Below are positions 1-30,675 of a DNA stretch of 64,000 bases, one piece after another; within the stretch, counting starts at the first letter, position 1, and each line of letters opens with the position of its first letter. The notes under the pieces were generated by a model. That model saw only the letters and a program-made list of their open reading frames with translations. It made no database searches and was not told the origin of the DNA. Source of the DNA: Levilactobacillus wangkuiensis. GTDB lineage: Bacteria; Bacillota; Bacilli; Lactobacillales; Lactobacillaceae. A program made the translations under genes and the position numbers. The stretch covers positions 62,001 through 126,000 of the forward strand of contig NZ_BOLM01000002.1 of NCBI RefSeq assembly GCF_016861605.1. The letters run 5' to 3'.

Positions 1-190
1 AGAGGCGGTTTCGCGGACGCAGCTGTGTCGGTGGTGTTAGACCGAGTGCTTTTCTCGGCCTTACACCACGGGACGACCTGGGAAACTCGCGCCCCTTGGC
101 GAGGTTTCTAGGCGAGACGGAGGACCGCATCTCAGGCCGCAGTCGTTCCCCACAGCAGCGGTAGCGAAGACCGCCGCCGGGAGCGGACCC
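1..190 (-). repeat. Dispersed structured element, copy 1 (5' end cut by window)
   Basis: This copy of the dispersed element begins outside the window. The outer stem AGGCGGTTTCGC near 3-14 pairs with GCGAAGACCGCC near 164-175. Stem C is 31-46 with 54-69, and hairpin B is about 78-92 with 101-114. Read on the minus strand it shares the GCTGTGGGG and CACCGACACAG motifs with the copies at 29.5-30.7 kb. Hairpin B has a wholly different sequence from the other copies but is still paired at nearly every position. It lies just downstream of the pdp terminator. No coding potential is evident. Family membership is clear from the sequence; function is unknown. Confidence 0.75.
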
Positions 191-197
191 CAACGAC

Positions 198-234
198 AAA
201 AAAGAGCCAGCCGGCAAGGAACGCCGACTGGCTC
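198..234 (-). terminator. Rho-independent terminator of the deo operon
   Basis: On the minus strand GAGCCAGTCGGC and GCCGGCTGGCTC form a 12-bp stem with one wobble pair and a 7-nt loop, followed by six T. It lies 25 bp after the pdp stop codon. Confidence 0.9.
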
Positions 235-258
235 GTAGGAGATGAAGCGCGGTTCTGA

Positions 259-1557
259 CTACCGAACCGTTTCGTGAATCAGCGTAATTGGTTCCGCTGA
301 ATCGCTAATTTCAATGTTCTTGTAAAGCATGTCCTTGATGTCATCAACATCTTCACGGTTACTGTAGATGGTCAAGAGCGTGTCACCAGTCTTAACGGCG
401 TCACCGATCTTCTTGTTCATCATGAGTCCAACCGCGTAGTCCAGCTTGTCGTCAGCCTTTTGCCGGCCACCACCGAGTAACATCCCGGCGATACCCATTT
501 CATCGGCTTCAACCTTGCTGACAACCCCGTCAGACTTGGCTGGCAAGTCAATCTTGTATTTGGCTTGTGGCATAATTTCTGGGTGTTCGATGACACTCCG
601 GTCGCCGCCTTGGGCTTCGATCATGTCGCCGAACTTCTTCAATGCGGAGCCGTCTTCAATGGTCTTTTCACACATGGCCCGGGCCGTCTTCAAGTCGTCA
701 GCCTTTCCAGACATGACAACCATGTGAGAGCCTAACGTCAAGACTAAGTCGGTAATGTCGGCTGGTGCTTGCCCCTTTAAGAGGTCGATGGATTCCTTGA
801 TTTCCAAGGCATTCCCAATGGCGTTCCCCAAAGGTTGATTCATATCGGAAATGATGGCCATGCAGTTCATGCCGACCCCTTTACCGATACCCACTAAGGC
901 TTTGGCCAATTCACGTGAGTCGTCCAAGGTCTTCATGAAGGCACCCGCACCGGTCTTAACGTCGATAACTAAGGCGTCGGTCCCAGAAGCAATCTTCTTG
1001 CTCATGATGGAACTAGCAATCAACGGAATGGAGTCAACCGTGTCGGTGACGTCCCGCAGTGCATAGATCTTCTTGTCAGCGGGGGCAATGTTTCCAGTAG
1101 CCCCAACGATGGCCAAGCCTTGATCCTTCACTTGCTTCTTAAATTCATCTTCACTGATTTCAACTTTGTATCCTGGAATCGCTTCCAATTTATCCAAAGT
1201 GCCACCCGTGTGACCCAGGCCACGGCCAGAGATCATGGGTACGGGAATGCCCAATGCGGCAACGATTGGGGCCAATGGAATACTGGTCTTGTCACCCACA
1301 CCACCGGTCGAGTGCTTGTCGACTTTAATGCCAGGGATGCTGGATAAGTCCAAATGGTCCCCAGACTTCATCATGGCCATGGTCAGCTCTGAGCGTTCAG
1401 CATCGGTCATGTCGTTGAAGTACGTTGCCATCAAGAAGGCACTGGTTTGGTAATCTGGAATTTCACCGGAAACTACCCCATCAACGAAGGTTTGGATTTC
1501 TTCCTTAGTTAATTCGCCACCGTTACGTTTCTTATCAATAATATCTACCATTCTCAT
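259..1557 (-). CDS. pdp: Pyrimidine-nucleoside phosphorylase
   Basis: This cytoplasmic enzyme phosphorolyses uridine, thymidine and deoxyuridine to the base and (deoxy)ribose-1-phosphate. At 432 aa it matches the family length. The thymidine/pyrimidine phosphorylase signature [12 protein letters not shown] is at residues 81-92 and is followed by the [15 protein letters not shown] segment of the glycosyltransferase-3-like fold. The start ATG has GGAGTGG seven bases upstream. It is the last gene of deoC-deoB-deoD-deoR-pdp, so the sugar phosphate it makes can pass to DeoB and DeoC. Assignment is confident. Confidence 0.95.
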
Positions 1558-1594
1558 GTTTCAGCCACTCCATTTCTAATTGGGATAAACGTCG

Positions 1595-2551
1595 TTACTG
1601 TTTCGGCGTGTCCTTAAGTAGTTGTGCTGCTGCGTGTTGATCAATAATGAGGCAATTCGGGTAACCGCCCAGTAAGGCTGCTTTCACGGCGGGAACTTTG
1701 GCATCCCCTGCCGCCACCAGAATTGAGTGTTCCTTTTGCTTTAAGCTTTCTAAATTAATGCCGATGGTCCGTTCATTCAGCTGTGGATTAACGATTTCAC
1801 CATTTTCATCAATGTAGCGCGAGAAGATATCCCCCACCGCATGGGCCTGTAAGGATTCCTTTTCAGGTTCCTGCAGGTACCCCAGCTGAAAGACCAACGC
1901 ATTGTTGCGGACCGTCCCGACAGAATAAATCGCGATATTGGCTTTCTCGCCCAACTCAAGCAGATACTGAATGTGCCGTTCCTTCTCCACCAATTCCTTA
2001 GTTTGTTGGTGGTCGAAGATGACGGGCAGTGGTAAGTACTGCGGCACCGCGTGAAAAGCATTGGCAAAGGCGTCGATGCTTTCGTAAGCGTAGGTGTGCT
2101 CAGTGGAGTAACTCACACTCCCCTTAAGTTGAATGACCTCTACCCCAGTCAGGGTATCGGGTTGTAAATTGGAGCCAATGGCGTAGATGGTCTTGCCCCA
2201 GCCAATCCCAATGACATCATGTTCTTGCACAATGTCTTCGAGATAGCGAGCGGCGTACGACCCGACCGCATTTAAAATGTCACCAGTTGCGGTCAACTGC
2301 GTGGGCACCACGTGAACCTCCACGTGATAGGCCGCACCTAACGCATCTTCCAGCGTCTGCACGTCCTGCACGGGGTCCACAATTTGAATCCGCACTAAGC
2401 CTTGTTCTCTAGCAAACTGAAGGAGCCGGGAAACCGTCGGCCGGGAAATCCCCAACTGTTGGGCAATCTGACTTTGACTCTGATCAGCTTGGTAATACAT
2501 CTTGGCAACGGTTAGTCCTTGGGCCAAGCGCTGTTCGGTCGTCTCTGCCAT
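1595..2551 (-). CDS. deoR: SorC/DeoR-family sugar-binding transcriptional regulator
   Basis: This 318-aa protein has an N-terminal helix-turn-helix (about residues 24-45, SQSQIAQQLGISRPTVSRL) and a C-terminal SorC-type sugar-phosphate-binding domain with GIGWGKTIYAIG and the late AGDAKVPAVKAALLGG segment. Bacillus DeoR has this architecture and represses the deo genes until deoxyribose-5-phosphate binds. Position between deoD and pdp supports the same role here. The start ATG follows GGGGAGG. It is preceded by a 420-bp gap holding the deoD terminator and a copy of the dispersed element, so its own promoter is expected there but was not identified. Confidence 0.88.
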   Translation of the reverse strand: MAETTEQRLAQGLTVAKMYYQADQSQSQIAQQLGISRPTVSRLLQFAREQGLVRIQIVDPVQDVQTLEDALGAAYHVEVHVVPTQLTATGDILNAVGSYAARYLEDIVQEHDVIGIGWGKTIYAIGSNLQPDTLTGVEVIQLKGSVSYSTEHTYAYESIDAFANAFHAVPQYLPLPVIFDHQQTKELVEKERHIQYLLELGEKANIAIYSVGTVRNNALVFQLGYLQEPEKESLQAHAVGDIFSRYIDENGEIVNPQLNERTIGINLESLKQKEHSILVAAGDAKVPAVKAALLGGYPNCLIIDQHAAAQLLKDTPKQ

Positions 2552-2584
2552 TCCCGTTTCCTCCCCATTATTGGTTATTTATTT

Positions 2585-2700
2585 TCTTTGGTGCGACGAA
2601 TAGTGAAAACACGACGATGTGGTCGTTCCCGCCGGTGGGTTCAAGGTGCCCCACCTCTGGTCACTAACAACGACGTTACCATTTTCACTTTCGTAGCCAA
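2585..2700 (+). repeat. Dispersed structured element, mini copy
   Basis: Only the shell of the element is present. Near 2626-2665 it keeps GTTCCCGCCGGTGGG and the facing CCCCACCTCTGGTCACT, matching the shell of the copies at 30.1-30.6 kb read on the reverse strand. The inner hairpins A, B and C are missing. Imperfect outer arms near 2588-2616 and 2668-2700 share TTGG, CGA and AGTGAAAA. It lies between deoD and deoR. Confidence 0.6.
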
Positions 2701-2928
2701 ATACCTACCGTCTAATTCACAGTCATGCCATAAGCCATTGGCTGTTGGCTGTCTGTGTACCAGGCGCTCTGTTCCTATCAGCCGCCGGTTCCAAGCGCCA
2801 CGGTCCCGGCACTGATACTTTTCGCTAACTATCCAAAGAGTGTTTCACCCTTGGCCTACTCAAACTATCTTCACCAGGGTAGTCCTAACAGTCACTTAGC
2901 TATTCACCCTCTGGTTCATTATCCGATA
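2701..2928. other. Non-coding gap between deoD and deoR
   Basis: No convincing gene. It has short self-complementary segments, such as GGCGCT near 2763 facing AGCGCC near 2795. No promoter with good boxes for deoR was recognised, although the deoD terminator implies that one may exist. Confidence 0.4.
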
Positions 2929-2964
2929 GAAAAGGCGGGTGCGTCTCTTTAGTCCGCACCCGCC
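2929..2964 (-). terminator. Terminator after deoD
   Basis: A perfect 10-bp stem (GGCGGGTGCG with CGCACCCGCC) followed on the minus strand by TTTTCT lies 6 bp after the deoD stop. It separates deoCBD from deoR-pdp, at least partly. Confidence 0.85.
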
Positions 2965-2970
2965 ACTTCA

Positions 2971-3678
2971 TTACGCTTTAACGGCTGTGTCTAAAGCAAC
3001 CTTGATCATATCGTTGAAGGACTTTTCCCGTTCTTCTGGCGTCGTTGATTCACCGGTAATCAAGTGGTTACTGATGGTCAAGACAGAAAGTGCGCGAACG
3101 TGGTACTTCGCAGCTAACAGGAAGAGCGCCGTTGATTCCATTTCAGTGGCAATCACACCGTAATCAATCAGCTTTTGCCGATCCATTTCGTCGTTGTAGA
3201 ACCGATCTTCGGCCAAGATGTTCCCCACCCGAACTGGGATCTTCAAGTCTTGGGCCACGTGGTAAGCGGTGTCCAACAGACCGAAATCACTGATTGGGGT
3301 GTAGTACATGCCTGGACCAAAGGTGTTTTGGATAATGGAAGAATCCGTTGAAGCGGATTGGGCCAAGACCACGTCGCGAACGTGAACGTCTGGGCTCATC
3401 CCACCGGAAGTCCCTACCCGGAACAACGTCTTTACGCCGTATTCACTAATCAGTTCGTTGGCGTAAATGGAGATTGAAGGAATCCCCATCCCAGTGCCTT
3501 GCACGGAGATGCGCTTGCCCTTGTAAGTCCCGGTGTAGCCGAAGCAGTTCCGGACCTTATTGTAGCAAACTGGGTTTTCTAAGAAGGTTTCAGCAATGTA
3601 CTTTGCCCGTAATGGGTCACCGGGAAGTAAAACAGTGTCAGCAATGTCGCCCTTTTTAGCTTCAATATGGTTACTCAT
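2971..3678 (-). CDS. deoD: Purine-nucleoside phosphorylase, DeoD type
   Basis: It phosphorolyses purine (deoxy)nucleosides to free base and (deoxy)ribose-1-phosphate. The 235-aa length is typical of the hexameric DeoD type. It has the phosphate-binding GDPLRAK at 20-26, the RVGTSGG loop and the nucleoside-binding ATEMEST segment. A strong AGGAGG lies before the ATG. It is the third gene of the deo operon, 31 bp after deoB. Its product ribose-1-phosphate is the substrate of DeoB. Confidence 0.95.
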
Positions 3679-3709
3679 GATTAGTTCCTCCTAAAATGGT
3701 TGTGGTTAC

Positions 3710-4897
3710 CTATTTCAAGTCTGCCAAGAAACTGTGGCCTTCATCGTTGCCAGCCACGCCAAAGTTATCCAAGACCGTTGCTCCAAAGTCAGAGAACGGT
3801 GAACGAACGCCTAAGCTCCCACCTTGCTTGATGCTTGGTGAGTAAACCAGCAATGGCACTTGTTCACGGGTGTGATCGGAGCCTGTAAAGGTTGGGTCGT
3901 TCCCGTGGTCAGCGGTGATCATCAGCAGGTCATCGTCATGCATGTTGTCTAAGACTGTGCCGAGGCGCTTGTCAAAGTCCATCAATGCTTGCCCATAACC
4001 TTCTGGGTTGCGCCGGTGGCCATACATGGCATCGAAATCAACTAAGTTAATGAAGCAGAAACCGGTAAAGTCTTCTGCCATGACGTGGTCGACGTGGTCC
4101 ATCCCGTCCATGTTGCTTTCGTTATGGTAGCCTTCGTCGATCCCATGACCGGAGAAGATATCGTTGGTCTTCCCAACGGCAACGACGTGGACACCCGCTT
4201 TTTGTAAGCGGTCCAGGTCAGTTTCGCCGGTTGGTTCCAACGTGAAGTCACGCCGGTTAGCGGTCCGGGTAAAGTGGTCCTTGTCAGGGCCAACGTATGG
4301 CCGAGCAATGATCCGGCCGACTAAGTATTCTGGGCCGTTGACCAATGAACGCGCGTACTCACAAATCTTGTAGAGTTCTGCCAAAGGAATGACATCTTCA
4401 TGCGCAGCAATTTGCAAAACGGAGTCGCCAGAGGTGTAGACGATCAGGTCGCCCTTCGCCATCTGTTGTTCCCCTAATTCAGCAATGATCTTGGTTCCGG
4501 ATTCTGGCCGGTTACCAATGACTTTACGGCCAGAGAACGCTTCCAATTTGTCGATGATGTCGGCTGGGAAGCCGTTAGGGAACGTGCTCAGTGCTTTACG
4601 AACTGGCAAGCCCATCATTTCCCAGTGACCATCCATGGAATCCTTACCGGCTGAGATTTCGCGCATCTTACCGTAGTAGGCCTTAGGATTATCCGCAACG
4701 GGAACCCCTTCGATTGGGGTGTCACGCAAGTTAGATAAACCAATCTTAGCCATGTTTGGTAGGGATAATTTACCGGCAAAATGCTGGCCGATGTGGCCCA
4801 GCGTATCTGCGCCTTCATCGCCATATTTAGCGGCATCGGGAGCGGCCCCGGCACCAACTGAGTCAATTACTAAGCCAAAAATACGTTTGTACTTCAT
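3710..4897 (-). CDS. deoB: Phosphopentomutase
   Basis: It interconverts (deoxy)ribose-1-phosphate and -5-phosphate, linking the phosphorylases to the aldolase DeoC. At 395 aa it has the alkaline-phosphatase superfamily metal-binding signatures: an N-terminal [13 protein letters not shown], a central [12 protein letters not shown], and C-terminal [18 protein letters not shown]. It lies 31 bp after deoC and 31 bp before deoD on the same strand, so co-transcription is expected. The ribosome-binding site is not strong (GGGTAAATAAGGT). Confidence 0.95.
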
Positions 4898-4928
4898 ACC
4901 TTATTTACCCGCTTTCACAAATTTAATT

Positions 4929-5615
4929 CTAGTAACCGGACTTTTCGGCTGGTGCACCAGTCAAGATAGCAACCGTGGCACTGACACCTAAACGGCTAGC
5001 ACCGGCATCGATCATTTCAACGGCTTCATCCCAGCTGTGAACACCACCAGAAGCCTTAACGCCTAGGCGGTCGCCAACAGTTTCACGCATCAATTTAACG
5101 TCTTCAACCTTGGCACCGGCAGTTGAGAAACCAGTTGAGGTCTTCACGAAGTCTGCGCCGGCCTTTTCGCTTAACTTGCAACCCAGAACGATTTCGTCTT
5201 TGGATAACAGGCAAGTTTCCAAGATAACTTTCAAAATCTTACCCTTGGCGTGAACAGCGTCGGCCAATGACTTGATGTCAGCTTCAACAACATCATTGTT
5301 ACCAGACTTTAATTCACCAATGTTGATCACCATGTCGATTTCTTCGGCGCCGTCATCGATAGCCTTTTGCGCTTCGAAGACTTCGCTATCAGTTGCCATG
5401 GCCCCGAGTGGGAAGCCAACAACGGCGATTGGGTTAACGTCGCTGTCCTTCAATTGCTCAGCAACGAACGGAATCCAGTAAGAGTTTACGCAGACGGAAG
5501 CCGTGTCAAATTTCTTTGCTTCGTCACAAGTTTCTTTGATGCTGTCTTTAGTTGCATCTGCCTTTAAGTTAGTGTGGTCAATGTATTTTGCTAATTGTGC
5601 TTTCGTTAATGTCAT
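4929..5615 (-). CDS. deoC: Deoxyribose-phosphate aldolase
   Basis: It cleaves 2-deoxyribose-5-phosphate to glyceraldehyde-3-phosphate and acetaldehyde, feeding nucleoside sugars into glycolysis. At 228 aa it has the class I aldolase features: Schiff-base Lys158 in DFVKTSTGF and the second lysine Lys187 in GVKASGG. It is the first gene of the operon. The ATG follows AAAGGGG by about ten bases. The promoter, operator and candidate cre site lie immediately upstream. Confidence 0.95.
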
Positions 5616-5645
5616 TATATGAAACCCCTTTCATTTATCACCAAT

Positions 5646-5674
5646 AGCATACCCAATTCCTGCACATTTGTAAA
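5646..5674 (-). promoter_or_regulatory. deo operon promoter
   Basis: On the minus strand TTTACA (5669-5674) and TATGCT (5646-5651) are spaced by 17 bp. The -10 box is about 30 bp before the deoC start codon. It is the best promoter in the deo upstream region. Confidence 0.75.
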
Positions 5675-5682
5675 CCCCTGAA

Positions 5683-5698
5683 TTGAACCGCTGTTCAA
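5683..5698. promoter_or_regulatory. Putative DeoR operator
   Basis: The perfect inverted repeat TTGAAC-CGCT-GTTCAA lies 8 bp upstream of the -35 box. A palindrome with TTGAA/TTCAA arms next to a deo promoter suits a SorC-type DeoR. A further TTCA half-site follows toward the -35. Binding by this DeoR is inferred. Confidence 0.6.
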
Positions 5699-5778
5699 AA
5701 GCGTGCACCTTTGTGCATAATCAGGCAAGAAAAGTTTCACTTTCCGGGTTTACCGTTTTACTTAATTGAAGCCCGTTC

Positions 5779-5792
5779 TGATAACGTTTTCA
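5779..5792. promoter_or_regulatory. Candidate cre (CcpA) site upstream of deoC
   Basis: TGATAACGTTTTCA matches the cre consensus TGNAANCGNWNNCA at all but one fixed position. It is about 105 bp upstream of the deo -35 box. Catabolite control of nucleoside use is common in lactic acid bacteria, but this site is only a motif match. Confidence 0.45.
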
Positions 5793-5864
5793 TTTTCGCT
5801 TGTGAAATTAATTAGTTCATGGGACGGACGTTAAAGCCCCTCATTTTGTTAGAAAAAATTTTTT

Positions 5865-5900
5865 CAAAAAAATCGGCTGGATTAAAAATCCAGTCGATTT
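5865..5900 (-). terminator. Terminator of the secreted-protein gene
   Basis: On the minus strand AAATCGACTGGAT and ATCCAGCCGATTT pair with one wobble over a short AT loop and are followed by a long T-rich tract. It lies about 85 bp after the stop codon of the gene ending at 5985. Confidence 0.85.
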
Positions 5901-5984
5901 CTGGGTGAATTTGGTCTTCAAGTACGAATTTGTTGTCAAGAGTTCCTAGCAGTCGTCAGCCAGTTTCTCTCAGGCAGCAGCGAA

Positions 5985-6836
5985 CTAGTCTGGCATGTTG
6001 TCCCGAATCTTCTGACCAACTTCTGTGTTGGTGGGGCAGAACAACGCATGCTTCTCACTAACATAGTAGGTATCCCACTTGTCCGTAATGGCCTTATAGG
6101 TTGCCGGCGTGAAGTCGCTCTTCATGATGCTGACCTGCATGGGCACTGAAAATAGACTTTGCGTGACGTAAGGAAAGCCGTCTTCATCGTAAGGTACATC
6201 ATCAACGTAATAGAACGTTAAACCGTTGACCTCGCCCTTTAGATCTGGCAGACTTAGCCAGTCATTCCAGGACACATGTTTGGTGTCTTTGATGTAGAGT
6301 TTAGCGTTGTTGGTGGCAGTCGGCATAGTCTTGTTTGCTTGCGTCTGACTACCCGTGGTCTTGGTGGTCGCGGTTGGTTTAGCTGTCTTGGCAGGTGTCG
6401 AGGTCGTTGACGTTGTGGTTGAAGACGTTGTTGGCGTCGTTAGCTGACTGTTGATTGTAGAACTACTCTTGGTTCGTTTCTTCGTTCGAAAACCAGTTAA
6501 GTATTTTTCATTGACCCAAACGCCCTTACCCTTATAGGTGACATAGTCGTACTCATACCGCAGACCACCTAGTGAAATAGCTTTAACCTGATGAACTACC
6601 TTGTTCTTCATGGTGCCTAAGCGATACGCCCGCTTCAAGCGGTAGCGGTTATGTTTAACTTTATGTAGGGTGTACGCGTAGTGCTTGTACCCCGACTTGC
6701 GAAAATGAAATGAGCTAGCCGCTCGCGCATGCATCCACAACATCGGATGACTCTTGGCAGCGTGCGCCGTCTGTGGCACCAGGCCACCCCCGATTAACCC
6801 GCCGAAAACTAACAATCCCACAATACTCTTCTTCAT
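5985..6836 (-). CDS. Secreted protein of unknown function with Thr-rich linker
   Basis: I do not recognise this protein. The start at 6836 (MKKSIVGLL) is preferred because AGGGG lies nine bases upstream; an in-frame ATG at 6845 abuts that motif. A signal peptide with cleavage after THA or AHA (about residue 26) leads to a basic aromatic domain of about 90 residues (RYRLKRAYRLG, NEKYLTGF). A roughly 55-residue Thr/Ser-rich linker follows, then an acidic C-terminal domain (YVDDVPYDEDGFPYVTQ). No LPXTG or transmembrane anchor is visible. The N-terminal domain resembles short cell-surface modules of lactobacilli only in general composition. It has its own promoter and terminator, so it is monocistronic. 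Confidence 0.8.
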   Translation of the reverse strand: MKKSIVGLLVFGGLIGGGLVPQTAHAAKSHPMLWMHARAASSFHFRKSGYKHYAYTLHKVKHNRYRLKRAYRLGTMKNKVVHQVKAISLGGLRYEYDYVTYKGKGVWVNEKYLTGFRTKKRTKSSSTINSQLTTPTTSSTTTSTTSTPAKTAKPTATTKTTGSQTQANKTMPTATNNAKLYIKDTKHVSWNDWLSLPDLKGEVNGLTFYYVDDVPYDEDGFPYVTQSLFSVPMQVSIMKSDFTPATYKAITDKWDTYYVSEKHALFCPTNTEVGQKIRDNMPD

Positions 6837-6926
6837 CTGTTCCATCCCCTACTGGCCACAACTGTAGCCAATTTGTGGGCGCTTTTCACCACATTCCAGC
6901 AAGTGGACAACGCACCTAACCTTCTC

Positions 6927-6955
6927 AGTCTAGCCACAGTATCACTGTTTGTCAA
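6927..6955 (-). promoter_or_regulatory. Promoter of the secreted-protein gene
   Basis: On the minus strand a consensus TTGACA (6950-6955) and TAGACT (6927-6932) are spaced by 17 bp, about 90 bp upstream of the start codon. Confidence 0.75.
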
Positions 6956-7207: not shown

Positions 7208-7209
7208 CG

Positions 7210-7239
7210 CAAAAAATCGCCAGGGTTACCCCTCGCGAT
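7210..7239 (-). terminator. Terminator after the XRE regulator
   Basis: On the minus strand ATCGCGAGGG and CCCTGGCGAT form a stem with one G.G mismatch and a four-base loop, followed by TTTTTT. It lies about 70 bp after the stop codon at 7308. Confidence 0.7.
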
Positions 7240-7307
7240 AATTAATTAAGCCTGTTTGATTGACCGGATCAGCCCGGTGACTCCCCCCTGAATAAATGAC
7301 CCTTAAC

Positions 7308-7553: not shown

Positions 7554-7582
7554 CACGGAATCCTCCTTACAATCACTTCCAC

Positions 7583-20723: not shown

Positions 20724-20933
20724 AGTCCTCTCTGTAATTAGTCTTGAATAGTATACCAAAAAAACATACGTTCTGCTGGAAGTGTCCCCGACATTTCAAA
20801 AGAAATTTTGGAGACCGCTGCCATAATTTTAGCGGTTAAAAAGCCGTGCACACCAATAAACGCACCCAATCAGCCAGCCGGGTGATCAGATGCGCAATGT
20901 CACTGTTTTTATTTGTCGTTGTTGGCGCCTTAC

Positions 20934-21102
20934 CGGTCGGCGAAAATAAACCGGAACGCTGTGGGCGGACACCTGAAGCCAAAGTGCGGTCTTCAGGCTC
21001 GCTTTGAGCCTCAAAAGACGAGTCTCAAAGTCGCCAATTCTCTAAACGGTCAGGATCAACCGTTAAGAGAATTCCCACGGCTGAGTTCATTTTCGCCGAC
21101 CT
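20934..21102 (+). repeat. Dispersed structured element, copy in forward orientation (B1)
   Basis: This is a complete copy. The closing stem GGTCGGCGAAAAT faces ATTTTCGCCGACC. Inside are CGCTGTGGGCG, hairpin A (CCTGAAG/CTTCAGG with a GCCAAAGTGCGGT loop), hairpin B (CTTTGAG/CTCAAAG), stem C at 21036-21050 with 21059-21073, and CCCACGGCT. Stem C has one A.A mismatch. It lies between the ATP-grasp gene and pcrA, facing the next copy. Confidence 0.85.
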
Positions 21103-21196
21103 CACGGCTGACAGCGGATTAAAAACGCGACATGTCCGCTGCCCTCTCCTCAATCCAGTAATGGCCACTGCCAAACAAACTTACCGGCCGTCACTG

Positions 21197-21409
21197 GGTT
21201 AACGGGATATGAGCCGCAGGGAGAGTGAGAATGGGCTTAGCCGTGGGAATGTTCTTAGCGGCGGTCTGTGCCGGTTAGAACATTGATATCTTTGAGACAC
21301 CTGGGTGGCTCAAAGTAAGCCTGGAGACCGCTCTTTGGCTCCGGGCGTTCGCCCACAGCGTTCCGGTCCCATTCTCACTCTCCCGGAGGCACCAGTCCCC
21401 TGTTAACCC
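21197..21409 (-). repeat. Dispersed structured element, reverse copy (B2)
   Basis: Arms of 17 bp pair perfectly (21219-21235 with 21368-21384). An outer GGGTTAAC/GTTAACCC pair encloses them. On the minus strand it reads with the same order as B1: CGCTGTGGGCG, hairpin A with a GCCAAAGAGCGGT loop, hairpin B, stem C (AATGTTCTAACCGG / CCGCTAAGAACATT) and CCCACGGCT. It ends at the stop codon of the ATP-grasp gene, so it could also stop that transcript. Confidence 0.88.
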
Positions 21410-23327: not shown

Positions 23328-24236
23328 TTAACCCAACCACAGACCGAGTAATTCCGAGATAACCGTCACCAGCGCTAAGATTCCCAGACTTCGTACGGCC
23401 AGAATAAAGGTTTCCTTCTTCACCTGAACGCGGAATAGGCCGCGAACGTTGCGGACGATCAGGGGCACGCTGATCAGCGCCAGCAACGACCATTTGGGCA
23501 GGTCGCCCAGCATCACGCTGACAATCAGAGACAGATACCCGATGACGTAGAAGCTGGCAAACAGCCATAAGGCCCCCTGTTTGCCCAAGTAGTAGACAAT
23601 CGTCTTGCGGTTCAGGCTCAGGTCCTCGGCGGCGTCACAGATGTTATTAGCCAGCAATAACGCGGCAATGGCCATCACGGCGATTCCCGATGCCAATAAA
23701 ACCCGACCCATGAGCGGCCCAGTAAAGGCGGACGTTTGATAAAGGTTTAAATAAACCGTAATTAGCATAATCATATAACCCATGGTAAATCCGGCAAAGA
23801 ACTCCCCCGTGGGCGTGCCAGACAACGGCCGTGGCCCCCCAGCGTACAGGTAGCCGACGAGAAAACAAAAGACGCCCATAACCAGTAGCGGCCAGCCGGT
23901 CACCCAGACGAGAGTCAGGCCAATGATTCCCGCTACGACCGCCATGCTCGCCATCAGAGCAAAGATTCGGTTAACGGCCAGGTGGTGGGCCCCGATGATG
24001 TTGGTATGCTTCTTCCACTCGGCAGCCTGATTGCCCGCCTTGGTATAATCCTGATAATTATCATTGATATCCACGGCCATGTTAAAGAGCAACATCGCCA
24101 CAAAAAATAACGCGGTAACACCCCAATTCACATGCTGATAGTTAGCTTGGACAAAAATAACGCCCAATAAGAACGGCCAAACAGAGGCAATTTTGGCTTT
24201 AATTTCAACGAGTTCGAGAAAGGTACTGACGGTCAT
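23328..24236 (-). CDS. menA: 1,4-dihydroxy-2-naphthoate polyprenyltransferase
   Basis: This UbiA-family membrane enzyme attaches a polyprenyl chain to 1,4-dihydroxy-2-naphthoate, giving demethylmenaquinone. The 302-aa protein has about nine membrane helices. Its two aspartate-rich motifs are DINDNYQDY (first third) and NNICDAAEDLSLNRKT (about residues 195-210). Its prenyl donor is probably made by the synthase at 24898. Both serve the quinone needed by cytochrome bd at 31-33 kb. No other men gene is in the window, so the naphthoate may be made elsewhere in the genome or taken up. Confidence 0.93.
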   Translation of the reverse strand: MTVSTFLELVEIKAKIASVWPFLLGVIFVQANYQHVNWGVTALFFVAMLLFNMAVDINDNYQDYTKAGNQAAEWKKHTNIIGAHHLAVNRIFALMASMAVVAGIIGLTLVWVTGWPLLVMGVFCFLVGYLYAGGPRPLSGTPTGEFFAGFTMGYMIMLITVYLNLYQTSAFTGPLMGRVLLASGIAVMAIAALLLANNICDAAEDLSLNRKTIVYYLGKQGALWLFASFYVIGYLSLIVSVMLGDLPKWSLLALISVPLIVRNVRGLFRVQVKKETFILAVRSLGILALVTVISELLGLWLG

Positions 24237-24463
24237 ACGGATTCCTCCTGAATTTTTATAAGTTTAATATTATTGATTTGGTCTCCGACTTAGTGCTGAC
24301 ATGAAACTGCCAAATAAGCCGAGAAGTATGTATGCTAAATATTTTGTTACGCGATAACTTGCCACAGAAAATGATTGCGTGCGTCCAGAGGGACTAAGGT
24401 ATCCGAACGGACGTGCCACGGCCTTCACCCTAGATGCCACGCAAATTGGCGGTAATTCTCGCG
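24237..24463. other. Non-coding region upstream of menA
   Basis: No gene seen. It holds the menA ribosome-binding site CAGGAGG and an AT-rich stretch. Near 24379-24414 GTGCGTCC faces GGACGTGC, which may be a decayed fragment of the dispersed element. Confidence 0.3.
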
Positions 24464-24607
24464 GGCTAAACCAGTGTCAGCCTCCGGGCTGGTGAAAATG
24501 GGCTCAAAGTAAGTCCGAAGACCGCCCCCCAGGCTTCGGACGTGCGCCCACAGCGTCACGGCCCATTTTCACCAGCCCGGAGGCGCAATCAAACACCTAG
24601 TTTAGCC
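24464..24607 (-). repeat. Dispersed structured element, internally deleted copy
   Basis: The closing arms are a perfect 24-bp inverted repeat (24480-24503 with 24561-24584), and an outer GGCTAAAC/GTTTAGCC pair encloses them. On the minus strand it keeps CGCTGTGGGCG and hairpin A (GTCCGAAG / CTTCGGAC, loop with GCGGT) but lacks hairpin B and stem C. Compared with the copy at 21197 the deletion joins at a GGCT present on both sides. It lies between divergent menA and the prenyl synthase. Confidence 0.85.
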
Positions 24608-24834
24608 ACAATTTGATAATAGCCCATACCTGCGGTGAGTTCAACCGCCACAGATATGGGTTAGCCCGTTCACTCAGTCTCCCCAAAATTAGTTTTTACC
24701 AATAACGATTACACCAGCGTTACGTCGCTCACCGTCCAGTCTGATAATCCTTGATATCACACCACTTCTCGCCGATTTGGTCTGACTAGTCCACCCAACG
24801 TCCTAACAAATTCGAACAACAGAGTAACCTTTAT

Positions 24835-24863
24835 TTGACAACGTTTCCACATGCCGGTAAGAT
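24835..24863 (+). promoter_or_regulatory. Promoter of the prenyl synthase with overlapping cre-like site
   Basis: Consensus TTGACA (24835-24840) and TAAGAT (24858-24863) are spaced by 17 bp. TGACAACGTTTCCA (24836-24849) matches the cre consensus at all but one fixed position and overlaps the -35 box, so CcpA binding would repress. The cre call is a motif match only. Confidence 0.65.
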
Positions 24864-24897
24864 AAATTTTAACGTAACATACATAGCGAGGTGCAAA

Positions 24898-25875
24898 ATG
24901 GATCGACAACTTTGGCGGCAATTTCCACAAGTAGAACCGCAATTGGATGCGCTACAGGACTACCTTTTCCGGGCGGTTCAGCTGGATAACCAACCCATCC
25001 ACAGCAAAATATTAGCGTTGTTAAAATCTGGCGGCAAGCTGTTGCGTCCGGGATACTTTTACCTATTCTCTAAATTTGGGAACCAGGGCACACCGGCGGA
25101 ATTACAGGCCGGCGCGGCGGCACTAGAAATTCTGCACGTCGGCACCCTGATTCACGACGACGTCATCGACGAGTCCCCGACCCGGCGTGGCGTCCGCACG
25201 ATTCAGATGAAATATGGCCAACGGAACGCCATTTATGCCGGCGATTTCATGTTCACGGTCTACTTCAACCAGGTCTTGAAGGCCACGGCCGACCGGCACA
25301 TGGTGCAGGAACACATCGACGCCATGCACCGCATCCTGCAGGGCGAACTCCACCAAATGGACCTCAACTACCGTGAGGACATTACGGTTGACGCTTACCT
25401 CAACGAAGTCGCCGGCAAGACCGCCGAGCTGTTTGCGCTGAGTTGCTATACCGGTGCCAAACTTTCCGGCGCACCGGCCAGCGTGGTGGCCATCACCCGT
25501 GAGATTGGGATTGCCATTGGCTGTGCCTACCAGATGCTCGACGACATCTTAGACTACGCGGGCGACCCGGCCAAAACCCAGAAGCCCGTCCTGGAAGACT
25601 TGCGCTCTGGCGTCTACTCCCTGCCATTGATTCTGGCGATTCCCCAGGCTAAACGCGACTTCCACCACCTGTTGCGTAAGAAAAAGGACATGACGGTGGC
25701 CGACATTCAGGCCGTTCAATCGTTGGTCGCCCAGTACCATGGCGTTGCGGCCGCTCGACAACTGGCGCTGGCCCACACGGAAAAGGCGTTAGAGCTGATT
25801 CAACAGCTACCTGCTGGCGAGGCACAAGCCGACCTCGAAAAGCTCACGACCATGCTCCTGCGACGTGATCACTAA
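24898..25875 (+). CDS. Polyprenyl (heptaprenyl-type) diphosphate synthase
   Basis: It elongates farnesyl or geranyl diphosphate with isopentenyl units to the side chain of menaquinone. The 325-aa protein has the two Asp-rich motifs of trans-prenyltransferases: HDDVIDESPTRRG (DDVID at 87-91) and QMLDDILDYAGD (about 215). ATG 24898 is chosen because GAGGTG is five bases upstream; the longer frame begins inside the promoter. It faces menA, separated by an element copy. Chain length cannot be read from the sequence with certainty. Confidence 0.9.
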   Translation: MDRQLWRQFPQVEPQLDALQDYLFRAVQLDNQPIHSKILALLKSGGKLLRPGYFYLFSKFGNQGTPAELQAGAAALEILHVGTLIHDDVIDESPTRRGVRTIQMKYGQRNAIYAGDFMFTVYFNQVLKATADRHMVQEHIDAMHRILQGELHQMDLNYREDITVDAYLNEVAGKTAELFALSCYTGAKLSGAPASVVAITREIGIAIGCAYQMLDDILDYAGDPAKTQKPVLEDLRSGVYSLPLILAIPQAKRDFHHLLRKKKDMTVADIQAVQSLVAQYHGVAAARQLALAHTEKALELIQQLPAGEAQADLEKLTTMLLRRDH

Positions 25876-25889
25876 TTGATTAAACTAGT

Positions 25890-25923
25890 AAAGGGTCATC
25901 CCACGTGAGGATGACCCTTTTTG
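25890..25923. terminator. Terminator between the prenyl synthase and cydC
   Basis: AAGGGTCATCC and GGATGACCCTT form a perfect 11-bp stem followed by T5 on the plus strand. It is strong for the prenyl synthase and weaker for the convergent cydC. Confidence 0.88.
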
Positions 25924-25932
25924 TGTACAAAT

Positions 25933-27669
25933 TTACTTTCCGCGATCCAAGTCGTACAACGCTCTAAATCGGGCATTGTCCCGGTACAGTTCGGCTGGCG
26001 TCCCCTGCATGTCGAAGCGGCCGTTTTCAATGAAGCGGACCTGATCGACGTGGTTGATGCCTGCCAAATGGTGCGTGACCCAGATAATCGTCTTGTCGTG
26101 GAGCACGCTAAAGACCGTGTCCAGCAAGTGTTGTTCGGTAATCGGGTCCAGGCTCACTGTTGGCTCATCCAAGATGATGATGGGCGCGTCCTGCAAGAGA
26201 ATCCGCGCCAAGGATAGCCGTTGGCGTTCTCCGCCAGAGAACCGACTCCCGGCCTCCTGGACTTCCGTGTCATAGCCCTGAGGCAGCCGCCCAATCAGGT
26301 CATCCAGTTCAACGGCTTTGACGGCCGCGTGAACGTCCGCATCGGTCGCGTTTAAATTCCCCAAGCGCACGTTGTTCATCACGGTCGTGTCGAACAGGTA
26401 CGGCTGCTGATCCAGCACGCCAAAGAGTTGTGCCCGCTGCTGTTGTAACTGAGCAATCGGTACCCCGTTGAGCGTCACCTGTCCACTCGCCGGCGTTTCA
26501 TCCCCCAAAATTAACTTCAGGAGCGTACTCTTCCCCGTCCCACTGGGACCCAGCAAGGCTAATTTCTCACCCGGATGGAGCTCTAAGGACAGATCATCAA
26601 TGACTTGGCGCTCGGCCCCCGGATACGTGAAGGCCACATGGTCCAGCTGTAACGTCGGCGCCCCGTTAATCGTGGTTTGTGGCGCCTGTTCCGGTTCATT
26701 TTCATCCAAGCGGTTGACCCGTTCGATGGAATCCTTGTAGACCGGCCACTCGCTGACCCCTTGGCTCATGCTTGAGAACGGTTCGACGGTTGGGAAAAGT
26801 GCCAGCCCAAAGGCGGCGACCCAGTTGGCTTCGGCCTGATTGTGCGTGAACGTCAATCCGGCCCACCAAACGATCAGCACGACCGCTGCCCCGAAGACGA
26901 CCTGAATGGCAAAGTTGCGCCACCACTGAAAATGGTGGTCGGCCCGCCGCAGCGTGGCAATCTCATCGATGGGTTGGTCCTGTTGTGCCAGGAAGGCCGT
27001 CCGCCGACCAGAAATCAGCCAATCGCCCAAGCCCAGCACGGAATCGGTCAGTTTGGTATAAAAGTTCCGCTGCACCTGGCGTGCTTGGAACTCGCGGCGA
27101 CCGTTTACCGTCACGGACAACAGCGGCATGAAGATGACAATCACACCCAGCAGTAGCAGCATCAACAGGCCAAACGCCCAGTTGAAGTAGCCGATACCAA
27201 TGACCACGAATAGATATAGCAGCCAACCAATCACTAGGGGAAAGACCGTCCGCAGATAAAGGTTTTCAATGTGGTCGATGTCTTCGGCTAAGATACTAAG
27301 GACATCCCCCGTCTGGTGTGTTTGGCGAATGGCAACCGCTTGCTTTTCCACGGCCTGATACAGCCGCTTCCGAAAGTCCGAAACGATTCGCAACACCCAG
27401 TTGTGACTGGTCAGCCGTTCCGCGTAACGAAAGGCTGGCCGGCCAATCCCAAAGGCCCGGGCGAGCACGATGGGTACGTAAATCATCAAGATGTTGTACG
27501 GATGGGTGGCGGCCCGACTAATCAGGTAGCCGGAGTTAAACATCAGCGCGCCCCCGCAGAAGAAAGTCATGAAGCCCAGAAATAGAACCAGCGCCAACAG
27601 TTTTCGGTAGCGTCGCAGGTACGGCATGACCCAGTGATCGTGCTTAAATGTCGCAAAAAATCCCTTCAT
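25933..27669 (-). CDS. cydC: Thiol reductant ABC exporter subunit CydC
   Basis: CydC pairs with CydD in a heterodimeric ABC transporter needed to assemble cytochrome bd. The 578-aa protein has six N-terminal membrane helices, Walker A GPSGTGKST, signature FSGGERQRLSLAR, Walker B IIILDEP and the H-loop THHLAG typical of CydC. Its start overlaps the cydD stop by four bases, indicating translational coupling. Bacillus naming may swap the letters; the second gene is called CydC here by its C-terminal H-loop region. Confidence 0.9.
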   Translation of the reverse strand: MKGFFATFKHDHWVMPYLRRYRKLLALVLFLGFMTFFCGGALMFNSGYLISRAATHPYNILMIYVPIVLARAFGIGRPAFRYAERLTSHNWVLRIVSDFRKRLYQAVEKQAVAIRQTHQTGDVLSILAEDIDHIENLYLRTVFPLVIGWLLYLFVVIGIGYFNWAFGLLMLLLLGVIVIFMPLLSVTVNGRREFQARQVQRNFYTKLTDSVLGLGDWLISGRRTAFLAQQDQPIDEIATLRRADHHFQWWRNFAIQVVFGAAVVLIVWWAGLTFTHNQAEANWVAAFGLALFPTVEPFSSMSQGVSEWPVYKDSIERVNRLDENEPEQAPQTTINGAPTLQLDHVAFTYPGAERQVIDDLSLELHPGEKLALLGPSGTGKSTLLKLILGDETPASGQVTLNGVPIAQLQQQRAQLFGVLDQQPYLFDTTVMNNVRLGNLNATDADVHAAVKAVELDDLIGRLPQGYDTEVQEAGSRFSGGERQRLSLARILLQDAPIIILDEPTVSLDPITEQHLLDTVFSVLHDKTIIWVTHHLAGINHVDQVRFIENGRFDMQGTPAELYRDNARFRALYDLDRGK

Positions 27670-29399
27670 CGTGTCGTCGCTCCTTCCATTTCAGACCGCA
27701 ACCGAACGTAGGCGCCGTTTCGCTCCTGAAGCTCGGCAGGGGTCCCCTGCTCCACGATTTCGCCGTGGTCCATCACTAAAATATAATCCATTTCATTCAT
27801 CCAATGGAGCCGGTGCGTCGCGAAGAACACCAAATGGTTCGCAAAGACCGGCATCATGGTTTGTTTCAATTCCACTTCGGTTTCAATATCCAAGTGCGCC
27901 GTGGGTTCGTCGAATAGCAGGATTCGCCGCGAATCGTCCAGGAAGGCGCGAGCCAACGCAATCCGTTGGGCCTGGCCACCGCTGACGCCTCGCGCGCCTT
28001 CACCAATCTGAGTGTCCAAGCCGGCCGGCAAGGAGGCAATCCAGTCGGTCAATCCGGCTTTGGCGGCAGCAGCATTGACGGCCGCTTCGCTCGCATCCGG
28101 CGCATAGAAGGCCAGGTTGTCCCGCAAGCTGGCATGAAACAGGTATGGCGCCTGCGGAATATAAACGAAGCTGCGTTGCCAGGCCTTCTGGTCGAGGTGT
28201 GGCACCTGGGTTCCCCGAACGTGAATCTGTCCATCTTGGGGGCTCAGAAAGCCGCCCAACGTGTTGATCAGGGTCGACTTCCCGGAACCAGAGGCCCCAA
28301 TGATGCCGACCTTTTGAAAGCCATGGACGTCAAACGTGATATCCTTTAGCGTCGCCGCATCCTCGCCATAGGCCACATTCACGTGATCAAAGCGCACGTC
28401 GTCGTCAGCCGTCCACACGGGCTCGCGGGCCGGTAAGAGCTCCCGGTCGCTCGGCGTTTCGCGTTGTAAAATATCCAGCACGGCTGTCAACGCATTCTTC
28501 CCGTTCAGGGTCGCGTGATAGTCGTTAGCAAAGTTTCGAATTGGGGCAAAATAATCTGGTGCCAGGGTCAAAATGACCAATGCTGGCAGGAGTTGAATCG
28601 AATTATTCATCAAGCCAAAGCCCAAGAAAACGGCAATAATGGCGATCGACAGCGTCGTGAAAAAGTCCAACGCAAACGTTGACGTCATGGCAATCGTCAG
28701 GGTCGCCATGGTCTTCTTACGATAATCCTCACTGACTTGATAGACGTTGTCCGCATACTTTTCGTTCAAGCCCAACTGCTTCAGGGTTGGCAGACCCCGC
28801 AGCGTATCCACAAAGTGATTGGATAGTCGTTGGTAGCCGGCATATTGCCGGTCGGCCTTGGCCTGGGCCGCGAGCCCCAAGATAATCATAAAGATAATAA
28901 TCAACGGGTAGATAGCCAATAGGAACAGTGCCTCTTTCCACTGGATGAAGGCAATGTAAATCAGCACCAGCCAGGGCGTGATCGACAGGTCCAGCACCTT
29001 CCCGATGATCATCATCAGGTAGGTCTGAATCTTGTCGATACCCTCCAGGCCCATGGTGACCACGTTTCCAGTCCCCTTTTCGGCCACCACGCTGGGACCC
29101 AGGTCAAACAGCTTGGCCATAAAGTCCTTCCGCAATTTCTTAGTCGTTCGTTCGACAAACGGATACATTAGCCAATCCTTTAAGAGTGTCAACAAATGAC
29201 GCGCCAGGAAGGCGACCGCAAACACCGCCAACGGCTCGACAATCGTGTCAATCGGCTGTTGTTTCCAGAGCTGAACAATTGCGGCCGACAAGTACTGCGC
29301 CTGAATAATAATCATAATGGCTTGAATCACCGTCAGTACCGCCTCAATCGCCGCGGCCGGTTTCACACCCGGAAATTTAAAAACTCGTGAATCAATCAA
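27666..29399 (-). CDS. cydD: Thiol reductant ABC exporter subunit CydD
   Basis: This is the partner half-transporter of CydC. The 577-aa protein has an N-terminal six-helix domain, Walker A GASGSGKST, signature VSGGQAQRIALAR and Walker B ILLFDEPTAHLD. The start is TTG with GAGGGGG seven bases upstream. In related bacteria cydABDC is usually compact; here 1.3 kb of element copies and a terminator separate cydD from cydB. A clear promoter before cydD was not found. Confidence 0.9.
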   Translation of the reverse strand: MIDSRVFKFPGVKPAAAIEAVLTVIQAIMIIIQAQYLSAAIVQLWKQQPIDTIVEPLAVFAVAFLARHLLTLLKDWLMYPFVERTTKKLRKDFMAKLFDLGPSVVAEKGTGNVVTMGLEGIDKIQTYLMMIIGKVLDLSITPWLVLIYIAFIQWKEALFLLAIYPLIIIFMIILGLAAQAKADRQYAGYQRLSNHFVDTLRGLPTLKQLGLNEKYADNVYQVSEDYRKKTMATLTIAMTSTFALDFFTTLSIAIIAVFLGFGLMNNSIQLLPALVILTLAPDYFAPIRNFANDYHATLNGKNALTAVLDILQRETPSDRELLPAREPVWTADDDVRFDHVNVAYGEDAATLKDITFDVHGFQKVGIIGASGSGKSTLINTLGGFLSPQDGQIHVRGTQVPHLDQKAWQRSFVYIPQAPYLFHASLRDNLAFYAPDASEAAVNAAAAKAGLTDWIASLPAGLDTQIGEGARGVSGGQAQRIALARAFLDDSRRILLFDEPTAHLDIETEVELKQTMMPVFANHLVFFATHRLHWMNEMDYILVMDHGEIVEQGTPAELQERNGAYVRLRSEMEGATTR

Positions 29400-29559
29400 A
29401 ATAAAGCCCCCTCACAACAAGTGATAACTCATACTGCCATGATAGCATTTTTTAGGTATCTAAGCGCTACCAATCGCCGCTTCCCAACATCTTTTTGGCA
29501 ATTTAGTTGGTTACAATTGGTTGAGCTTTGGTGAGTTGTGCGTTGGCGTTCTCGCCTGC

Positions 29560-29729
29560 GGCAGCTAGATACGCCCCGCCTATGGGGCCCGGCTGAAGCC
29601 ATAGTGCGGTCTTCACCCTCGTTTGGAAGCTTCACTAAGCCCGTGAATCTTCCAAGCGGCCCGTGCTCTAAGTCCGGCAACCCCAGCCGAACTAAGAGCA
29701 CCGACACAGGCGTGCGCATCTAGCTGCCT
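29560..29729 (+). repeat. Dispersed structured element, forward copy (D1)
   Basis: The closing stem is GGCAGCTAGAT facing ATCTAGCTGCC, extended by ACGCC/GGCGT. Inside are CTATGGGG, hairpin A (GCTGAAGCC-loop-GCGGTCTTCA), hairpin B (TTGGAAG/CTTCCAA), and stem C (GTGCTCTAAGTCCGG / CCGAACTAAGAGCAC) with one A.A mismatch and one C.A mismatch. The motif CACCGACACAG follows. It lies just upstream of cydD. Confidence 0.85.
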
Positions 29730-29859
29730 CCGGCTTCACTTGACGTCAACCGCCAAGCCAACCGGTTGTGGCAACAATTGTCCTCAGTATCTACTTCGCT
29801 TACTCAGAATCGGTCTTCAATATGTATCGATTTTCCTCTTGAAGAGGCACAACCACCAC

Positions 29860-30045
29860 CGGGTTAAACCAGTGTCAGCCGCAGAGCCGGTGAAAACTGG
29901 ACCAGCAAAGTCCATGGGACAACCTTTGAGACCGCTCCTCAGGCTCAAAGTTGAGGTGAAAGCCCGCTCTTCGGCTGGAACCGGCCCATAGCCAGGCAGG
30001 TTGAATCCACCGTTGGGAACGAACCACAACACGGATCCGTGCTGC
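29860..30045 (-). repeat. Dispersed structured element, deleted tandem copy (D2)
   Basis: It begins with GGGTTAAACCAGTGTCAGCC and GAGCCGGTGAAAACTGG. It keeps hairpins A and B but lacks stem C; the missing part is bounded by an AGTCC direct repeat when compared with the copy at 30338. It is the first of three tandem reverse-orientation copies. Confidence 0.8.
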
Positions 30046-30051
30046 TCCCCA

Positions 30052-30337
30052 AGAAGCACACCCACACACCACGCTAAGTTAAATCACTGTCAACCGCACA
30101 GCTGGTGAAAACTGGGCCGGCCGTGGGAGTGACCAGAGGCGGATCAAAGTGCCCCGCTGTGTCGGTGGTCTTGGCTGAGGTCCTTTCTCAGCCTAGCCCA
30201 CGGGACAACCTTTGAGACCGCCTTTTGTCTCAAAGTTGAGGTGGAAGCCCGCCCTTCGGCTGGAACCGGCCCCATAGCGGGGTAGGTTGAATCCGCCGTC
30301 GAGAACGAACCACAACACAATCCAGGCCACTCCTCAC
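30052..30337 (-). repeat. Dispersed structured element, tandem copy (D3)
   Basis: This is one 286-bp unit of a tandem duplication with the next copy; both start with a CACACNCACACAC tract and CAGCTGGTGAAAACTGGGCC or a close variant. A shell GTGACCAGAGGCGG/CCGCCG encloses stem C (30165-30179 with 30187-30201), hairpin B (CTTTGAG/CTCAAAG) and hairpin A. Confidence 0.85.
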
Positions 30338-30675
30338 GAAACACACTCACACACTATGCTAGGTTAAGTCACTGCCAACCACAGGGCTGGTGAAAACTGG
30401 GCCAGCCAAGTCCGCGTCAGTGACCAGAGGCGGATCAAAGTGCCCCGCTGTGTCGATGGTCTTAGCCGAGGTTTCTCACTCGGCTTAGTCCATGGGACAA
30501 CCTTTGAGACCGCCTTTTGGCTCAAAGTTGAGGTGAAAGCCCGCCCTTCGGCTGAAACCGGCCCCATAGCCGGGCACTTTGAATCCGCCGTCGGGAACGA
30601 ACTATAACACAACACGACCCAGGCCCAGGCCCAGTTTTCACCAGCTCGGCCCCGCTGGCAAAGACTGGTTTAACC
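30338..30675 (-). repeat. Dispersed structured element, tandem copy with closing arm (D4)
   Basis: It has the same order as D3, with stem C at 30456-30470 and 30479-30493. Unlike D2 and D3 it has the far closing arm GGCCCAGTTTTCACCAGC (about 30627-30644) and the terminal CTGGTTTAACC. That end pairs with the GGTTAAACCAG at the start of D2, so the whole triple array is bounded by one inverted repeat. Confidence 0.85.

Follow-up and report, generated by a model that had tools for sequence, protein, structure and literature searches.

Intergenic cloverleaf elements of Levilactobacillus as a probable mobile DNA family without a protein of its own

Introduction

The window, the 64-kb stretch of Levilactobacillus DNA analyzed here, raises the question of what its dispersed, foldable intergenic sequences are. 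A preliminary description, made from the sequence, counted nine such elements in both orientations and proposed either a structured RNA or a folded mobile element. That observation is confirmed and its interpretation is partly supported: the elements are probably a non-autonomous, protein-less mobile DNA family whose mode of operation is that of a REPIN or MITE on a much larger scale.

Results

Copies in the window

A covariance model (R1) built from six window copies matched the window eight times at E ≤ 0.001, with one further remnant at 2590-2720 and no match past 30.6 kb. The copies are as follows (coordinates, strand, description).

E1, 22-156, minus: class I core (R1 E 5.6e-26; fold), outer arms at about 1-190
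E2, 2590-2720, plus: remnant consisting of outer arms, with the core and part of one arm lost
E3+E4, 20924-21394, both strands: paired unit (plus cloverleaf, spacer, minus cloverleaf) with GGCGCC-like ends
E3, 20958-21081, plus: class II core (R1 E 1.9e-26)
E4, 21240-21359, minus: class II core (R1 E 1e-24; inverted repeat I8), 32-nt outer arms at 21204-21235 and 21368-21399
E5, 24446-24605, minus: partial copy (R1 E 7.3e-8 for 24488-24554; inverted repeat I10) with long perfect arms at 24480-24503 and 24561-24584 and hairpin A, without a full hairpin B or stem C
E6, 29554-29734, plus: variant core GCCTATGGGG at 29579-29710 plus outer arms (R1 E 9.5e-25; I21)
E7, 29850-30050, minus: partial copy in which stem C is missing (matched by R1 at 29886-29992, E 4.6e-10)
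E8, 30156-30278, minus: class I core (R1 E 6.4e-28)
E9, 30395-30668, minus: class I core at 30447-30570 within class II-like outer arms (R1 E 3e-29)

The two 3' motifs, the GCTRTGGG joint and the GCC...GCGG loop occur as originally described, although the core at 29579-29710 has the variant given above and arms are missing from the 24.5-kb and 29.9-kb copies. Single motifs by themselves are weak evidence, with 8 occurrences versus 3.5 expected in one search and, when up to two mismatches are allowed, 17 versus 17.7 in another.

Comparison with two relatives, G020 and G026, shows that copies undergo deletion, tandem duplication and, in one case, inversion. The E2 remnant has a full core at the syntenic site in G026 and the same short form in G020, while the E5 site in G020 holds a fuller copy with 70 nt more. 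E7, E8 and E9 form a tandem repeat of 286-292 nt (direct repeat D1), about 292 nt of which is missing in G020, and an alignment of the window with both relatives shows the E3+E4 block inverted as a whole in G026.

Abundance and distribution

The nine window elements are the tip of a far larger set: R1 matched 137 times in 464 kb of the window's genome (G000), which extrapolates to ~900 copies per genome, and the cores alone make up 3.6% of the 466 kb examined. As initially claimed, placement is intergenic, with 135 of the 137 copies overlapping a predicted gene by at most 30 nt. R1 was positive in 102 of 397 Lactobacillaceae genomes, which belong to 9 of 40 genera, with weak matches in two of these, and gave no match in 3 of the 35 genomes of the window's genus. 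Same-order genomes outside Lactobacillaceae yielded four single weak matches (E 9.9e-6 to 9.1e-5) plus one at 9.1e-4, on E-values that are rough for this model.

The earlier impression that no named family fits was borne out by Rfam, which gave no match by gathering score or by E-value. A blastn search of plasmids and phages with E9 as the single query found no match. A pattern search of IMG/VR gave 22 hits; none has an R1 match and they are therefore attributed to chance. Most of the genome-contig pattern matches listed are from unrelated phyla and likewise attributed to chance; only the Levilactobacillus rows among them were used, for assigning the genus.

Fold and covariation

Each module is a four-way-junction cloverleaf with a core of ~125 nt, comprising P1, hairpins A and B and stem C, beyond which outer arms add a median of 18-20 pairs (G000 and G365, a genome of another genus). 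Hairpins A and B carry a conserved C.T mismatch and stem C a conserved A.A mismatch; hairpin A of class I has a 3x3 internal loop, and fixed mismatches recur from class to class.

The stem sequence changes between copies while the four-armed fold stays, as the preliminary description had recognized. In an R1-fitted alignment of 136 distinct rows, 25 of 26 modelled pairs have changed on both sides, and the covariation score is 0.418 versus 0.134 in shuffles. Structure is far above chance, and the stems covary strongly also when structure plays no part in the alignment: when 129 cores were aligned with MAFFT, blind to structure, the top ten column pairs by APC G-test were all helix pairs, with class-specific non-pair columns also present from rank 11 onward. 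Within one copy, 18 (G000) or 20 (G365) arm pairs are complementary, versus 0 and 7 when arms from different copies are combined.

The covariation once taken as a sign of selection on the fold is strong, but it is not proof of such selection because the two arms of a palindrome can also stay complementary through DNA template switching, as described in PMC8794818. It is possible, if rather doubtful, that the covariation is mainly mutational, with quasipalindrome correction maintaining old arms while the fold itself is not selected, a process compatible with mobility. The near absence of wobble intermediates (see below), the privacy of arms to each copy and the described mechanism are consistent with this explanation, whereas arm correction should erase the C.T mismatches of A and B, the A.A mismatch of C and the class I 3x3 loop, all of which persist, and elements of this architecture are also present in other genera. 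Part of the covariation could derive from template switching.

Paired units

Neighboring copies less than 700 nt apart are strongly ordered, with 30 plus-minus, 0 minus-plus, 12 minus-minus and 3 plus-plus arrangements in G000 and 26 plus-minus, 0 minus-plus and 2 plus-plus in G365. The unit, an arrangement new here, is a cloverleaf, an AT-rich ORF-less spacer and an inverted cloverleaf. Its consensus was derived from 25 G365 pairs, with the modules as inverted ends; 24 G365 spacers have a GC fraction of 0.267 (versus 0.364 in the G365 stretches examined) and contain no 40-aa ORF, and blocks there measure about 470-720 bp between aligned flanks.

Base pairing and strand

Outside a few fixed mismatched positions the stems are nearly strictly Watson-Crick, and G.U is no commoner than A.C, unlike in tRNAs. 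Stems A and C of G000 contain 15 G.U and 46 A.C in 2251 cells (leaving out P1 and the three internal-loop pairs of hairpin A), compared with 15 and 2 in 292 cells of 13 tRNAs; the internal-loop pairs themselves have 0 G.U and 6 A.C in 381 cells. Outer arms in a strict alignment have 48 G.U and 75 A.C in 2826 cells of G000, and 32 and 44 in 2431 cells of G365. This strict version, with its between-copy control, replaced a permissive arm alignment (374 G.U, 211 A.C; RNA-favoring on the originally modelled strand) that had extended into unrelated flanks. Besides that permissive count, those of P1 (37 G.U, 26 A.C in 650 cells) and of stem C of G365 (77 and 20) run against a DNA reading; for stem C of G365, most of the G.U is one fixed T.G pair (71/119).

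When folded as RNA, the opposite of the originally modelled strand has the lower predicted energy, by 5-8 kcal/mol on average (class I 6.5, n = 82; class II 5.2, n = 35; others 7.8, n = 13) and by 1.5 kcal/mol in another genus, and it is still lower when G.U is forbidden (n = 130). If either strand is special, these predictions suggest that it is more likely the opposite one.

A family of structured RNAs, either non-coding or acting in cis, with copies acting on neighboring transcripts and most likely encoded on that opposite strand, would account for the strong covariation and the lower folding energy even with G.U forbidden; read on that strand, the fixed mismatches are purine-purine (G.A type) and T.T, and G.U outnumbers A.C 46:15 in stems A and C. 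Nevertheless, we consider such an RNA family unlikely. Opposite-strand G.U still occupies only ~2% of cells versus 5% in tRNAs, with 75 (G000) and 44 (G365) G.U in the outer arms versus 48 and 32 A.C. Covariation is present, but a G.U excess is absent save at single fixed positions; orientation to genes is random (47:42 in G000), placement tracks intergenic length, paired copies point in opposite directions, and Rfam offers no match. On pairing and orientation, the RNA half of the initial proposal is not supported.

Presence, absence and rearrangement

The other half, a folded mobile element, gained support from another genus: between the same neighboring genes, sister species lack seven units and one single module that G365 has.

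Site S1: 548 nt in G365 versus gaps of -3 to 22 nt in 6/7 sisters; 125 in the seventh
Site S2: gap of 69 in the one sister compared
Site S3: 472 nt in G365 versus gaps of -5 to 45 in 5/5 sisters
Site A: gaps of 26-68 in 4/4 sisters
Site B: gaps of 22-23 in 3/4 sisters; a decayed piece in the fourth
Site C: gaps of 89-109 in three sisters; fourth without alignment
Site D (single module): gaps of 89-99 in three sisters; fourth aligned on one side only
Site E: gap of 98 in one sister

Because what differs at these junctions is the block as a whole, the elements there were gained or lost as blocks, and we infer that the events were probably insertions in G365 rather than repeated losses in its sisters. 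No target-site duplication of constant length was found at these junctions; S3 alone suggests one by eye (TGTTAA). Within G000, four pairs of similar copies have 180-241 nt in common at 94%, with mostly unrelated flanks. Copies are common to 39/41 and 40/41 syntenic intervals in the window's own clade, which therefore gives no sign of recent movement. At C2:52048, it at first appeared likely that insertion had duplicated the target in inverted orientation, but the same flank motif recurs at E3/E4 and therefore belongs to the element; the copy absent there in G026 looks like a deletion.

Retention of copies for a host function at the DNA level (chromosome topology, nucleoid protein binding or bidirectional termination) is unlikely: 89 of 162 intergenic regions of at least 200 nt hold a copy and positions are stable between close relatives, but three genomes of the genus have no R1 match, sister species lack whole blocks, at the same junctions, and there is no clear preference for convergent gaps, which hold 19 of 134 copies and account for 12% of intergenic length.

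Candidate mobilizing enzymes

Neither of two candidate enzyme types tracks the elements. The Y1 (RAYT) transposase domain PF01797 has no match in G000 (a draft assembly of 56 contigs) and occurs in 23 of the 35 genomes of the genus, among them the element-free G021 and G031; the reverse transcriptase domain RVT_1 occurs in 10 of 35 and is missing in the copy-rich G026. A comparison of 95 ORFs lying between plus and minus copies gave, other than orthologues, just one distant match of two large ORFs and a single 44-aa match, with no gene family in common, and the ten scanned of 14 listed between-copy ORFs in G365 are all ordinary host genes. No autonomous parent with matching ends was found in the stretches examined.

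Discussion

The block that is present or absent is usually two modules inverted around the spacer. If the elements are mobile DNA, an enzyme encoded elsewhere may recognize the folded strand or cruciform and move it, and single modules would mostly be leftovers of pairs. Such a family resembles REP/BIME/REPIN systems, as presented in excerpts of PMC3116915, in its hundreds of intergenic palindromic copies, its replicating unit of two inverted modules and a spacer, its singlets as remnants, its tandem clusters and its compensatory changes. It differs from them in having a four-way cloverleaf of ~125-190 nt rather than a 20-60 nt palindrome and an AT-rich spacer of up to several hundred nt, and, unlike REP/REPINs with RAYT, in lacking a Y1 transposase in G000.

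Like the MITEs ERIC, YPAL/RU-2 and Correia/NEMIS, as covered in excerpts of PMC2229807 and PMC10969869, the elements are short, non-coding, intergenic and probably mobile, with inverted-repeat ends and a stable fold, and the eight G365 junctions add presence and absence at the same site. In contrast to those MITEs, there are ~900 modules per genome (extrapolated), the inverted repeats are themselves cloverleaves, the fold is conserved more than the sequence, and no parent transposon was found. The string 'lactobacill' has no occurrence in the searched text of either paper. The stem-loop families of Cozzuto et al. (PMC2267715) are likewise genome-wide, folding intergenic repeats; in the excerpts of that work the single Lactobacillus is L. 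johnsonii and no Levilactobacillus appears.

We tentatively raise the possibility of a new bacterial class of mobile DNA, defined by its architecture: paired inverted cloverleaves recognized as folded DNA by a non-Y1 enzyme, with sequence nearly free to drift, in several Lactobacillaceae genera and with copy numbers that reach the hundreds in a genome. If the mobile reading is right, a mobile family absent from Rfam and from the literature searched would make up several percent of the genome in common food bacteria, its four-way fold kept by Watson-Crick covariation at the DNA level, a case in which covariation alone would not be proof of RNA. The family would also offer a natural test of selection versus template switching as the keeper of folds, and could lead to a new mobilizing enzyme.

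Eukaryotic foldback transposons have long structured inverted ends flanking a spacer, and by description the unit resembles them in both features.

Fold and copy number

The nine stretches of the preliminary description comprise, read directly, six full and three partial copies of a repeated element. R1, a covariance model built from the six full copies with P1, hairpin A and stem C set as paired and hairpin B as unpaired, matched eight of the nine at E<=0.001 (the last ending at 30570); the ninth is a remnant whose full version is kept in G026, a close relative. The proposed scan of the genome and of Lactobacillaceae with such a model revealed many further copies. The source of the window is a draft genome of 3.14 Mb, G000, which yielded at least 150 matches (weakest among the matches listed, E 1.5e-19). 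The window and 20 further stretches, each 20 kb long (464 kb in all), held 137 at E<=0.001, partial copies counted, which extrapolates to ~900 copies in G000; cores make up 3.6% of 466 kb examined.

Parts of the core
P1: GCTRTG paired with CACRGC
Hairpin A: 8 pairs, loop CC...GCGGK
Hairpin B: CTTTGAG...CTCAAAG or longer
Stem C: outer helix, CTAAG/CTAAG with A.A mismatch, inner helix

Motifs read by eye include a C.T mismatch (GAGCC/GTCTC) common to hairpins A and B and, in class I, an additional pyrimidine 3x3 internal loop in hairpin A. Class is set by the 3' end: CACCGACACAGC in class I, TTCCCACGGC in class II, and others in the remainder.

The stems were said to vary yet stay paired, and they do: counting each copy as one sequence rather than one independent event, both sides changed in 25 of 26 pairs in G000, with a covariation score of 0.418 versus 0.134 shuffled and at most 0.084 slid. 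In a structure-blind alignment of 129 cores, ranks 1 to 10 were all helix pairs. In G365, a genome of another Lactobacillaceae genus, 121 copies show two-sided changes at 20 of 26 pairs (score 0.368 versus 0.109). This covariation may stem either from recognition of the fold or from template switching (PMC8794818); the persistence of fixed mismatches favors recognition of the fold.

Pairing at the DNA or RNA level

With the internal loop of A excluded, G000 stems A and C contain 15 G.U and 46 A.C among 2251 cells, versus 15 and 2 among 292 cells in 13 distinct tRNAs from this and related genomes (Fisher p 2.9e-6, with copies not independent). Strictly aligned outer arms give G.U 48 and A.C 75 of 2826 in G000, and 32 and 44 of 2431 in G365. 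Arms within a copy form a median of 18 (G000) and 20 (G365) pairs, versus 0 and 7 when arms of different copies are combined. Three comparisons run the other way: P1 (G.U 37, A.C 26 of 650 cells in G000), where the excess arises because one T.G pair is common in class II; stem C of G365 (G.U 77, A.C 20), where 71 are one T.G pair; and a permissive arm alignment (G.U 374, A.C 211). We take the single T.G positions to be fixed mismatches like the rest, and the pairing overall to be at the DNA level.

In G000 the strand opposite the one first described has the lower RNA folding energy, and likewise in G365 (by 1.5 kcal/mol, n=117, p 0.02), an advantage that holds with G.U forbidden. Any RNA would therefore more likely lie on that opposite strand. 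At gathering score, Rfam recognizes a single feature in the window, a ribosomal protein L13 leader (44875-44933, -).

Genomic context and distribution

The elements are intergenic, as had been claimed: gene overlap is at most 30 nt for 135 of the 137 copies, with genes predicted by a simple ORF-based caller (coding fraction 0.70-0.76). Of the 134 copies with both neighbors, 89 lie in co-directional, 26 in divergent and 19 in convergent gaps (66, 19 and 14%), for comparison with intergenic length shares of 67, 21 and 12%. Among the 89 in co-directional gaps, orientation is split 47 versus 42, with a median distance of 394 from the downstream start and 206 from the upstream end. Copies occupy 89 of the 162 gaps of at least 200 nt.

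R1 matched 32 of 35 genomes of the genus at E<=0.01, with no match at that threshold in G015, G021 or G031. Family-wide, 397 genomes were sampled and 102 matched at E<=0.001, spread over 9 of 40 genera including its own; re-searching ten of the 102 listed 137, 149, at least 150, 5, 124, 138, 12, 18, 26 and 4 matches. Genera g38 and g22 are weak (best E 1.3e-7 and 2.0e-6 on re-search). Two genomes of genus g4, which belongs to a different family of the order, each gave a single 111-nt match (G430, E 1.1e-5; G638, E 9.1e-5); these may reflect chance or a far relative.

Paired units and probable mobility

Neighbors less than 700 nt apart are mostly inverted pairs: +- 30, -+ 0, -- 12 and ++ 3 in G000, and 26, 0, 0 and 2 in G365 stretches picked around known matches. 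The G365 unit (25 pairs), with its outer ends near TGCCGCCTCC and GGAGGCGGCA, is a cloverleaf followed by an AT-rich spacer and an inverted cloverleaf. In the window, the third and fourth copies (E3, E4) form such a pair, and their block (20924-21394) is reversed as a whole in G026. At each outer end the breakpoint is close to GGCGCC and falls beyond the arms of the modules themselves.

In G000, similar copies forming four pairs agree at ~94% over 180-241 nt, and their flanking sequences are mostly unrelated. At eight G365 junctions, blocks absent from sister species comprise seven pairs and one single module.

G365 junctions and gaps in sister species (nt)
S1: 548 in G365; seven sisters -3, 7, 6, 5, 15, 22, 125
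S2: one sister 69
S3: 472 in G365; five sisters 45, 30, 14, -5, 34
A: 26, 33, 68, 67
B: 22, 23, 23, plus 139 with a decayed piece
C: 89, 89, 109; one further sister not alignable
D: 95, 89, 99; one further sister aligned on one side only
E: one sister 98

The simplest reading of this comparison, short of proof, is that the blocks were gained in G365; no target duplication of constant length was seen at these junctions. Within the window's own clade (92-98% identity), 39 of 41 syntenic intervals carry a copy in G026 and 40 of 41 in G020, counting neighbors inside one interval, and changes among copies are deletion, tandem duplication and inversion. Among genomes at ~80% identity, G003 and G033 have no copy at the E3/E4 junction, and G030 has a single class II copy there.

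Relation to known elements

In being non-coding, bounded by inverted repeats and present or absent at given sites, the elements agree with MITEs. Their plan is an enlarged version of that of REPINs (PMC3116915): a palindromic module paired with its inverted partner, single modules as remnants, clustering in tandem and compensatory changes. Membership fails, however, because the module is far too long and no Y1 transposase (RAYT; PF01797) was found in the draft G000. Titles and abstract openings of the papers searched, with subscription journals thinly covered, describe no such family for Lactobacillaceae. As a separate observation, G000 contains two reverse-transcriptase domain (RVT_1) matches, at C22:3911-4459 and C11:69116-69691.
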